The notes beneath the pieces were generated by a model, which saw only the letters and a list, made by a program, of their open reading frames with translations, ran no database searches and was not told where the DNA came from. A DNA stretch of 8,381 nt from Treponema sp. (GTDB lineage: Bacteria; Spirochaetota; Spirochaetia; Treponematales; Treponemataceae), in assembly GCA_012513125.1 (NCBI GenBank), contig JAAZCS010000346.1:1-8381 (forward strand), read 5' to 3'. Made by a program: the position numbers and the translations under genes. This document shows, piece after piece, positions 735 through 6,375 of the stretch; positions within the stretch are counted from its first letter, which is position 1; each line of letters opens with the position of its first letter.

Positions 735-743
735 TGTTATACT
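735..743 (+). promoter_or_regulatory. Extended -10 promoter for the R-M fusion gene
   Basis: TGTTATACT matches the extended -10 consensus (TG, one base, then TATACT at 738-743). No convincing -35 hexamer lies 16-18 bases upstream, which is common for extended -10 promoters. The last base of the -10 is six bases before the ATG at 750, so transcription would begin at or next to the start codon, giving a leaderless mRNA. It also argues against the in-frame TTG at 681 as the start. Confidence 0.55.
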
Positions 744-749
744 TTACTA

Positions 750-2198
750 ATGCAAGAATTAATTAATCATTCATTTACAAAGAAAGATGTTATTGGGATT
801 TTAGAAAACTGTCTAAATAAAACTCTCGGTGAAATTGACATAAATCATGTTTTTGATTCAACAAGAGAAAATCCAAAAATTACAGGAATTGCAGGTAACG
901 TAATTGAACAATCTGTTTTTGGTTATTCAGCAAATAGCAGTAAAAATCCCGATTTGATAATAGATAACATTCCTACAGAATTAAAAACAACAGGAATTCG
1001 CCTTTCAAAAAAACATCCAAAAGAATATGAAGCAAAGGAACCAATGTCAATTACAGGAGTTTCACCAAAAACAATTATTACAGATATTTCTCTTGTAAAT
1101 AAAAATGATATTCCGCATCATAATCTTTTGGTGGGTGGCTTTCCCTGTCAAGACTATTCTGTCGCTAGAAGTCTAAACGGTGAAAAAGGAATTACTGGAA
1201 AAAAAGGTGTTCTTTGGTGGTCAATTCTAGAAATTCTAAAAGCTAAAAAAACTCCTTTTGTTCTTCTCGAAAATGTAGACCGTTTACTTTTATCCCCATC
1301 AAAACAGCGTGGTAGAGATTTCGCAATTATTCTTTCTTGCTTATTAAATGAAGATTATATTGTTGAATGGCGCGTTGTAAATGCAGCTCAATATGGTGAA
1401 GTTCAGCGTAGAAGAAGAACATTTATTTTTGCTTACAAAAGAAATACAAAGTTTGCTAAATCTCTAAATGTATCTAATCAAGATAATGATATTTATAGAA
1501 TTATTCAAAACGAAGGTTTCTTTGCAAAAACCTTTAGCATAAAAGAGTTTAATAATCTTTCTATAAAATCAGAAAATATTTCGGACGATGTACAATTAGT
1601 TTCGGATAAATTTACCTTTAATTTTGAAAATAGCGGAATTATGTATAACGGTTTTGTTTATACTGCAAAAACTTTTCCAGAAGAAATCGAACCAAAAACA
1701 CTTAAAACAATTATTGAAAAAGAAACAGTTGCTTCAAAGTTCTTTATTCCTAATGAAAAACTTTATTATACAAATCCAGAAGAAACTCATAGTGATGAAA
1801 CAGAAAACGAGTTACCAGCAAAAAGTCGTCAAACTTGGCAATATATAAAAGGTGCAAAAAGAAAAATGCGTTTAGCCACTAACGGTCATAAATATGTTTA
1901 TTCAGAAGGTGCAATTCCAATGATTGACGAATGGAATAAACCTGCAAGAACAATGCTCACAAGTGAAGGTAGTTTTAATAGAAGTACACACATTGTTAGA
2001 GATTACAATACAAAAGAAATAAGAATTTTAACTCCATTAGAAACAGAAAGAATTCAAGGTTTCCCAGACAATTGGACAAATACAGGAATGCCCGAAAAAT
2101 TCAGATATTTTTGTATGGGAAATGCTCTTGTAGTTCCGTTAATTTCGAAAATGGGAAAAACTATAGAAAAGATTTTTGATGAAAGTGAAGATGAATAA
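750..2198 (+). CDS. Chimeric R-M ORF: MutH/Sau3AI-like nuclease N-terminus fused to a truncated C5-cytosine methyltransferase
   Basis: 482 codons from the only plausible ATG. Residues 1-105 resemble the catalytic part of MutH/Sau3AI-family type II endonucleases: ITGIAGNVIEQSVFGY with E53, then D68 (possibly D72) and TELK with E77 and K79, the D-x(n)-E-x-K metal site, followed by YEAKEPMSI. From about residue 107 the chain becomes a C5 DNA methyltransferase: motif IV GGFPCQDYS with catalytic C133, motif VI ENVD (E174), motif VIII QRRRR (from 219), a long target-recognition region, motif IX TPLETERIQGFP (428-439) and motif X MGNALVVP (456-463). The SAM-binding motif I (F-x-G-x-G) and motif II are absent, as is the rest of the nuclease. 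Methylation should therefore be lost; nuclease activity is doubtful. Such nucleases and methyltransferases are normally separate neighbouring genes, so an in-frame deletion is the simplest origin. A GATC target is only a guess from Sau3AI kinship. An assembly join is the alternative. Confidence 0.85.
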   Translation: MQELINHSFTKKDVIGILENCLNKTLGEIDINHVFDSTRENPKITGIAGNVIEQSVFGYSANSSKNPDLIIDNIPTELKTTGIRLSKKHPKEYEAKEPMSITGVSPKTIITDISLVNKNDIPHHNLLVGGFPCQDYSVARSLNGEKGITGKKGVLWWSILEILKAKKTPFVLLENVDRLLLSPSKQRGRDFAIILSCLLNEDYIVEWRVVNAAQYGEVQRRRRTFIFAYKRNTKFAKSLNVSNQDNDIYRIIQNEGFFAKTFSIKEFNNLSIKSENISDDVQLVSDKFTFNFENSGIMYNGFVYTAKTFPEEIEPKTLKTIIEKETVASKFFIPNEKLYYTNPEETHSDETENELPAKSRQTWQYIKGAKRKMRLATNGHKYVYSEGAIPMIDEWNKPARTMLTSEGSFNRSTHIVRDYNTKEIRILTPLETERIQGFPDNWTNTGMPEKFRYFCMGNALVVPLISKMGKTIEKIFDESEDE

Positions 2199-2541: not shown

Positions 2542-3492
2542 TTAGTCAATTTTTTTTGCTAAATATTCACAGAAACAACAATTGTCGCTTGTTTTGCCCC
2601 TGAATTTGCAACCTTCTTTTTTCATTTCCTTCATGTAAGAAAGAAGTCCTTCGTTGTAGCAAATGTTGACTAGTTTATTTTCTGACGCTTGTTTCATAAC
2701 GATGTCATATGTTTGATTTATATTGCCAATTATTAGTTTTTCCGATTCGTTTGCAAATCCACAGCAAGGTGCAATGTCTCCGTTTGGATGCACGTAAAAA
2801 AGTTGACCTGGACCTTCGCAATAATCTTCTTTGAACCATTTTTTATCTTTCCATGCTTGAGGATTATCGCTTTGTACTGAAAGTGGAGTGATATATATCG
2901 GAATAAAAAGATTTTCGTTTTGAAGAGTCATTGTTACGCCTTTTGTTTTATCAAAAGAAATTTTTTTACTTTTGCAATTCATAGCCTTTGCAAGTTTTTC
3001 TATCAATTCAAAATCATCTTTTTTATTGTTCATCACAAATTGAATTTCAATAATAAAGTTGTCTTTCCAGATTCTAAAAACGTTATTACAAAAAGTGGCA
3101 ATTCTTTCTGGCTTTTGATTATGATAAGAATCGTAGCTCAAACCGAATTTTCCGTCAAAACCAGCGTTATAGATTTTTTCTAATGTTGAACATAATTCAT
3201 CTTCAGTTTTCCACCAGTCCCCGTTTGTCATGATTTTATCAAAAGTGAAGTCGTTTTTTACCGCAAATTGAATGATTTCTTCCATATATAAGGTATTTAA
3301 AAAGGGTTCTCCACCCGAAAATCCAATTTTAGAAATGTTTTTGCAAGTCTTTAAAAAAGAAATTGCAGCATCGCTTTTTAGTGATAAGTTGTTTCTTTTT
3401 ACATAGCAATGTTTACAGTGTAAATTGCATTTATCAGTCACGGCAAAAATAATTTCTTCTGGGTTAAAACCATGTTTAATATTCTTATTCAT
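2542..3492 (-). CDS. Radical SAM protein with a SPASM-like cysteine-rich C-terminus
   Basis: 316 residues. The radical-SAM cluster motif is DKCNLHCKHCY with C22, C26 and C29 (C-x3-C-x2-C), followed by the SAM-binding GFSGGEP at 57-63. Such enzymes split SAM at a 4Fe-4S cluster to make a deoxyadenosyl radical. The C-terminal third has YCEGPGQ (C225), PNGDIAPCCGF (C243, C244), C278, C295 and DNCCFC (C305, C306, C308), a spacing like the SPASM or twitch domains that bind auxiliary iron-sulfur clusters in peptide- and protein-modifying enzymes. The substrate is not evident; PqqE- or anSME-like peptide modification is a family-level guess. The gene is transcribed divergently from cimA. Its start lacks a Shine-Dalgarno, and a TATACT box lies just upstream, suggesting a leaderless message. 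No frameshift or missing core motif is seen. Confidence 0.88.
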   Translation of the reverse strand: MNKNIKHGFNPEEIIFAVTDKCNLHCKHCYVKRNNLSLKSDAAISFLKTCKNISKIGFSGGEPFLNTLYMEEIIQFAVKNDFTFDKIMTNGDWWKTEDELCSTLEKIYNAGFDGKFGLSYDSYHNQKPERIATFCNNVFRIWKDNFIIEIQFVMNNKKDDFELIEKLAKAMNCKSKKISFDKTKGVTMTLQNENLFIPIYITPLSVQSDNPQAWKDKKWFKEDYCEGPGQLFYVHPNGDIAPCCGFANESEKLIIGNINQTYDIVMKQASENKLVNICYNEGLLSYMKEMKKEGCKFRGKTSDNCCFCEYLAKKID

Positions 3493-5283: not shown

Positions 5284-6375
5284 ATGGAAAAGACTATAGC
5301 GTTGATACCAGGAGACGGAATTGGTCCTGATGTTGTTGATGAAGCTGTAAAAGTATTGAATGCCGTTGCAAATAAAAATGGTCATACTTTCACTTATAAA
5401 AATGTTATTGCTGGATGAAAAGCTATTGATATGTTCAAAAATCCTCTTCCTAAAGATCAGCTTGATATTTGTTTACATTCAGATTCTGTTTTATTGGGCG
5501 CTGTTGGCGGTCCAAAATGGGATGATGTAGATCCTTCTATCAGACCAGAAAAAGCACTTTTGGGTTTAAGAGGCGGAATGAAAGTTTATGCCAATCTTCG
5601 TCCTGCTGTAATGTTCCCACAGTTAAAGGCTGCTTGTCCATTAAAAGATGAAATTGTAGGAAACGGTCTTGATATTTTAATCGTACGTGAACTTACTGGT
5701 GGAATTTATTTTGGAGAAAGAGGAATTTCTTCTGATGGAAAAACAGCATGGGATACAGAAAAATACAGTTGGGAAGAAATTGAACGCATTGTTAGACTCG
5801 GATTTGAATCTGCTCAAAAACGTCAAAAGAGATTGTGTGTTGTAGATAAGGCAAATATTCTTAATTCAAGTAGATTATGGAGAAAAGTAGCCGAATCTAT
5901 TAAAGGTGAATATCCTGATGTAGAATTAAACTATCTTTATATTGACAATGCTTCAATGCAATTAGTTCGTAATCCAAAACAATTTGATGTAATTGCAACA
6001 AGCAACATGTTTGGTGATATTCTATCTGATGAAGCTTCACAGATTACAGGTTCAATTGGAATGTTGGCTTCCGCTTCTTTAGGAAATGGAAAAGGACCTG
6101 GTTTATATGAACCAATCCACGGGTCAGCTCCTGATATTGCAGGAAAAAATCTTGCAAATCCTTTGGCAACAATTCTTTCTGCAGCAATGCTTTTACGTTA
6201 CGATTTTAAACTTGAAAAAGAGGCAAAATCAATTGAAGACGCAGTTCAAGCAGTTCTAAATGAAGGCTGGAGAACAGGCGATATTGCTGGAAACATTGAA
6301 GAAGTTAAAGCAAGTGGAAAACTTGTTGGAACTAAAGAAATGGGTCAGCTTGTTGTAGACAAAATTAATGCCTAA
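5284..6375 (+). pseudogene. leuB: 3-isopropylmalate / 3-methylmalate dehydrogenase with an in-frame TGA at codon 45
   Basis: The full frame is 363 codons, a normal LeuB length, from an ATG with AGGAG five bases upstream. LeuB oxidatively decarboxylates 3-isopropylmalate (leucine) and, in the citramalate route, 3-methylmalate to 2-oxobutyrate, using NAD. The family opening IALIPGDGIGPDVV (residues 5-18), [11 protein letters not shown] (70-80), RELTGG (135-140), VVDKAN with K189, [11 protein letters not shown] (241-251) and [13 protein letters not shown] are all intact. Codon 45 (5416-5418) is TGA, aligned with the second glycine of the conserved GG-x-AID motif; one G-to-T change from GGA would explain it. 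Translation could restart at the ATG at 5431, but the product would lack the first strand and GDGIG loop and is unlikely to work. There is no other damage, so a recent mutation or a base-call error is likely. The surrounding genes show no sign of TGA being recoded. Confidence 0.9.

Follow-up and report, generated by a model that had tools for sequence, protein, structure and literature searches.

The analysed DNA, an 8,381-nucleotide stretch of a Treponema sp. genome that is referred to here as the window, carries on its forward strand an open reading frame at positions 750..2198. The frame comprises 482 open codons when read from its ATG and 505 if counted from a TTG at position 681. Together with family profile matches, it describes a chimera, R'-'M, in which the beginning of a restriction endonuclease (R) runs in frame into the later part of a C5-cytosine methyltransferase (M). 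R' (750..1079, +) corresponds to residues 1-110 of a Sau3AI/MutH-like endonuclease of about 479 residues in congeners and is a fragment of the nuclease, not a whole domain; approximately 370 of the 479 R residues are missing. It contains E53, D68, E77 and K79, whose catalytic role is assigned by analogy with MutH. The fragment matched the NCBIfam profile restrict_Sau3AI (NF040973) over residues 17-102 (E 3.1e-12), with 46 bits against a whole-chain cut-off of 300 bits, the Pfam profile MutH over residues 57-109 (22.5 bits, cut-off 23) and the PADLOC profile REase_II PDLC03570 for Type II restriction enzymes over residues 5-109 (E 9.8e-32).

The second part, 'M (1083..2195, +), extends from motif III onward and includes PCQ (motif IV), ENV, QRRRR, the target-recognition region and the C-terminal motif; motifs are named and numbered as is usual for such enzymes. 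Residues 107-474 matched the Pfam profile DNA_methylase, with the match beginning at position 44 of 324, and an alignment with M.HhaI started with M.HhaI residue 59 opposite residue 111 of the chimera. Profile and alignment agree that motifs I and II are lacking, whereas motif III, PCQ and the later motifs are kept. Codon comparison with eight congeners placed the junction region at 1068..1085 (+): R homology stops at I110 (nt 1079), M homology starts again at D112 (nt 1083), and codon 111 (1080-1082) is close to neither. The original prediction of a single open frame with these four nuclease residues, without motifs I and II and with the switch between 1059 and 1085, is therefore in agreement with the translation, the profiles and the relatives.

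Downstream of the chimera, a small ORF (2304-2531, +) encodes 75 residues including cysteine and had no family match. It is convergent with a gene for a radical SAM/SPASM protein (2542-3492, -), whose best NCBIfam match was a YydG-like peptide epimerase (E 2.5e-12, below the cut-off); the two genes may form a modified-peptide pair. Further along, a leuB-like gene for 3-isopropylmalate dehydrogenase (TIGR00169; 5284-6375, +) has an in-frame TGA at codon 45 (5416-5418), counted from the ATG at 5284. The listed ORF of this gene starts downstream of the TGA, at 5431.

An extended -10-like element, TGTTATACT (735..743, +), ends 6 nt 5' of the ATG of the chimera. The pattern, TGNTANNNT, was chosen after the sequences had been viewed; it ends 6-9 nt 5' of the R start in six of nine loci (the window, L032, L033, L034, L037 and L038), so that the element of the window is placed as it is before R in five of eight congeners. 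Single-base shuffles of the upstream stretches, a lenient control, yielded a mean of 0.095 and a maximum of 2 over 2000 trials. The placement suggests a promoter that would give a nearly leaderless message, and the promoter of R was likely kept in the chimera. A promoter scan of 500-2700 returned 10 sites versus 8.9 in shuffles, no excess, and the element at 735-743 was not among them. In most of the nine loci no clear Shine-Dalgarno sequence was seen by eye, and the message from which R of this family is translated may be leaderless.

The start of R was found in nine of 200 genomes of the genus, the window's own and eight others, and M was also present in all eight R-carrying congeners. In each of them an intact R (~479 codons) is followed on the same strand by M (437-450) after a gap of 44-111 bp. 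The R part of the chimera is 71-78% identical to the R proteins of these congeners and the M part 69-74% identical to their M proteins. EPMSIT in R and GGFPCQ in M lie 1473-1480 bp apart in seven of the eight congeners and 1536 bp apart in the eighth, G112, but only 96 bp apart in the window, which is shorter between these fixed motifs by 1377-1384 bp and 1440 bp, respectively. The arrangement taken as ancestral is hence intact in 8/8 congeners, and a segment of it is missing in the window. It had been proposed that the two proteins are normally separate neighbours and that a deletion took away the last part of R together with the first part of M; relatives with two full genes in R-M order, and the missing ~1.4 kb, support both proposals. 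The intact congener R proteins of this type also score below the NF040973 cut-off, in two halves, so they represent a divergent branch of the Sau3AI family.

A search of the assembly to which the window belongs (2.27 Mb, 406 contigs, ~81% complete) yielded neither a second R match nor a closely related intact M; other M matches were at most 40% identical. Seven more C5-cytosine methyltransferase matches, 27-36% identical to that of the window, occur on contigs C392, C399, C195 and C32 (L074-L077) of this assembly; one 17-kb contig holds three of them and another contig holds two. A second Sau3AI-type system is found in the genus (G112, G113, G188, G152, G079 and G073; L026-L031 and L063-L068); by match positions its M precedes R, and its R exceeds the NF040973 cut-off. 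Both kinds of system occur in G112.

At the junction, R relatives read T/V/I-I-I, D/N/G, E-E and M relatives T-T-N-I/M-D-I-S/A, and T-I-I-T-D-I-S is found in the window. Around the junction, the closest R by eye is that of G112, where R (ATTATTGAT) and M (AATATTGAT) have TATTGAT in common. Before the GAT of this shared stretch the window carries one additional codon, ACA, so the exact ends of the deletion are not fixed; a junction at the shared stretch with a small insertion or a later change is plausible.

Other proteins share this architecture. The protein P0001 (11 members) has the same junction as the window with 7 residue differences. P0002 (one member, on a 12,179-bp contig) is 97% identical to the window, with 11 differences in 390 compared residues, and has the same R end joined to EDYIVEW, PCQ being deleted too. 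It agrees with the window at all 7 positions at which P0001 differs, and these differences therefore likely arose in P0001. The IIDED of P0002 fits a separate deletion that brought R (IIDEE) up against M (NEDY), but also a nested second deletion. P0091 (20 members, 56 contigs; locus L040) from Bacterium D16-36, a member of the Lachnospiraceae, is an unrelated chimera that likewise consists of an R' joined in frame to an 'M without motif I. Its junction reads NKDIP; the intact R P0239 (13 members, 58 contigs), which is 99-100% identical to the R part of P0091, has NKDVP. No intact M of D16-36's own species was seen, and the M of another species, G112, which has KKDIP, was used for the junction comparison; the two proteins are thus joined where R and M resemble each other. 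The D16-36 genome itself has the chimera only.

Such chimeras are infrequent. Among the best 120 of 8000 scored proteins, 117 kept motif I (sought as FAG[VIA]G), and the three that lacked it were all R'-'M chimeras (the window-type P0001, P0002 and P0091) with three different junctions. One compact family conserved in many unrelated genomes, which would have spoken against the original prediction, was not seen in this set. In a survey with NF040973, 17 of 274 genomes of the window's family had a match: 15 with both R halves, the window's chimera, and G148. The family of D16-36 had matches in 13 of 397 genomes: 11 with both halves, the D16-36 chimera, and G365, in which the N-terminal match lies in a 217-aa frame. 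Apart from this N-terminal match, no chimera besides those of the window and D16-36 was seen in the two surveys, and FPCQ was absent from all 237 R-like proteins among the matches listed. By these comparisons the predicted R'-'M deletion route is rare but recurrent. G148 was considered as another remnant and rejected; its match spans 69 bp, and the neighbourhood yielded no M and, for R, nothing beyond 20 residues matching P0239 (E 5e-4).

Neither half of the chimera is complete. On the R side there are residues 1-110 of ~479 and no other R piece in the own assembly, and on this basis R' is predicted to be unable to fold as a working endonuclease, because the remaining ~370 residues are missing. 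The earlier warning of a dangerous nuclease, should it be active, is weakened accordingly. On the M side, motifs IV (PCQ), VI, VIII and later ones of the C5-cytosine methyltransferases (Dcm family) are present, but motifs I and II for cofactor binding are absent. Since FAG[VIA]G is lacking and S-adenosylmethionine (SAM) binding depends on these motifs, the M part should not be able to methylate. With both halves incomplete, the chain does not have the composition of a Type IIC single-chain R-M enzyme, as far as this can be read from sequence. An AlphaFold model had a mean pLDDT of 65.5; residues 1-112 stayed below 50, and ~residues 190-330, which cover the middle of M and its recognition region, reached ~84-96 per ten-residue block. 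A fold search in the PDB gave M.HhaI (2uyc) as best match (E 2.9e-13, query TM-score 0.42, rmsd 7.6). The structure prediction that had been proposed as a check thus recovered the C5-methyltransferase core and was uninformative for the R part, which was represented by only 3 rows in the alignment.

Invariant positions were defined from small sets, 41 intact M of 48 fetched and 35 intact R of 40 fetched. The M part of the window is changed at 3 of 164 positions invariant in the 41 intact M proteins. Intact M proteins tested likewise had 0-3 changes, and since the window lies within this range, it would not have undergone long decay. P0002 is changed at 3/107 and P0001 at 5/164 of these positions, the latter being the highest count in the comparison, and 2 of the 7 changes of P0001 relative to the window fall on them, a hint of relaxed constraint in P0001. 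The R part has one change in 51, common to all three chimeras, compared with 0-3 in intact R proteins. The long intact frame had been regarded as telling; on this point we disagree with the original prediction. With 7 differences to P0001 and 11 in 390 to P0002, few stops are expected even without selection (by an estimate from the genetic code, less than one for 7 replacements), and the intact frame is uninformative about function.

An imprint of the system on GATC was considered and rejected. Nine congeneric or confamilial genomes with the system had a median ratio of 0.45 and 14 without it 0.49 (20 fetched, 6 dropped for lack of countable bases; Mann-Whitney one-sided p 0.14); because these groups show no clear difference, the target site is not readable from GATC rarity. 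In a 215.9-kb sample of the own assembly, window included, 190 GATC were seen versus 603 expected. None of the other 15 four-base palindromes is avoided as strongly there as GATC, and many congeners without the system avoid it too.

Taken together, the ORF 750-2198 is very probably an in-frame R'-'M chimera left by what was likely one deletion of ~1.4 kb in an adjacent R-M pair, and its product is predicted to be inactive both as nuclease and as methyltransferase. A single deletion would have run from within R into the first part of M, probably at a short shared sequence. Loss of a Type II R-M system can kill the cell because the endonuclease outlasts methylation (PMC3874152); it is not lethal where the endonuclease stays active for less than two replication cycles, as with Esp1396I (PMC11324026). 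Survival of the lineage would hence require an R that was already dead, or one that lost its activity before unmethylated sites could accumulate. The open frame would mean that the event is of recent date and preserved the frame by chance, or that out-of-frame cases go unseen in protein databases. Several findings count against the deletion scar. The deletion is deduced from relatives with 70-78% identity, because the pre-deletion pair of the window's own lineage was not found, and an intact copy may exist elsewhere in an organism whose assembly is ~81% complete. All three known junctions are in frame, a chance of ~1 in 27, albeit one that protein databases favour, and the remaining M motifs and R catalytic residues are unbroken. 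Furthermore, P0002 shares the R-side end of the window and may derive from a nested second deletion instead of an independent event.

The in-frame junctions would be accounted for if the chimera were a retained working protein, for instance one that binds DNA through the target-recognition region of M without methylating it. This is unlikely, even though a 482-codon frame is open in at least two alleles, the target-recognition region and later motifs are intact, the central and recognition part of M is modelled with high pLDDT, and a promoter-like element is kept upstream. The architecture is not constant in the family, given that P0002 has also lost PCQ and the segment up to EDYIVEW, and P0001 changes two positions that are invariant in the 41 intact M proteins; the low pLDDT of residues 1-112 points the same way, although it comes from the 3-row alignment. 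A more specific role, to which we give little credence, is that of a rescue device: a catalytically dead but target-recognising M fragment, produced from the R promoter, would cover the sites while leftover endonuclease is diluted out. If this were true, the in-frame state of the known junctions would be explained, and one deletion at short sequences shared by R and M would end both activities at once, a recurrent exit from restriction addiction.

An assembly artefact that joined two loci or skipped 1.4 kb is very improbable. The assembly is fragmented and incomplete, but P0001, an allele with 7 residue differences, has the same junction (its 11 members are possibly not independent), P0002 has a second type of junction, and a chimera of its own is present in the isolate genome of D16-36. 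The assembly join raised originally has lost ground mainly through P0001. Finally, that a natural single-chain R-M enzyme of the Type IIC kind is in the making is scarcely credible, since the engineered RM.Eco29kI, which keeps both activities in one chain according to PMC3039593, joins two whole enzymes, whereas in the chimera about three quarters of R are missing along with the SAM-binding motifs I and II.

Because a cell may die when it loses an R-M system, such systems are considered resistant to loss. Under the preferred reading, a deletion scar, the chimeras would be traces of a loss in which one cut went through both genes, in the Treponema lineage with at least two breakpoints and separately in D16-36. 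In D16-36 the contig counts of the chimera and of the intact R are similar, which offers a natural system for asking how cells survive such a loss. Should the chimeras be mere debris, they would be a neat but ordinary example of gene decay, and would caution that genes of this sort are readily mistaken in annotation for functional methyltransferases.

That R-M systems decay and are lost is already known, and the available parts of PMC3874152 and PMC11324026 provide the same frame for lost systems. These texts speak of gene loss, and a chimera formed by one deletion across both genes was not met in them. A description of a natural R'-'M deletion chimera was likewise not found in our narrow literature search, which is no proof of its absence in print. 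The engineered RM.Eco29kI resembles the window in having R before M in one chain; as described in PMC3039593, its overlapping stop and start codons were replaced by glycines and both enzymes are whole and active. P0091 of D16-36 is similar to the window in being an in-frame R'-'M without motif I whose intact R is known as a separate protein. It belongs to other R and M subfamilies, its M part being 57% identical to that of the window, and its R part is longer, with ~215 residues and an NCBIfam match ending at 215. Unlike in the window, a vsr mismatch endonuclease gene (TIGR00632; L040 3507-3983) lies directly 5' of the chimera. The closest counterparts are the Sau3AI-like Type II R-M pairs of Treponema, such as R P0128 (MutH/Sau3AI family endonuclease [Treponema bryantii]) and M P0023 (T. 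pectinovorum). These are the same two proteins by sequence, encoded there by two intact genes and in the window by one chimeric gene without the middle.
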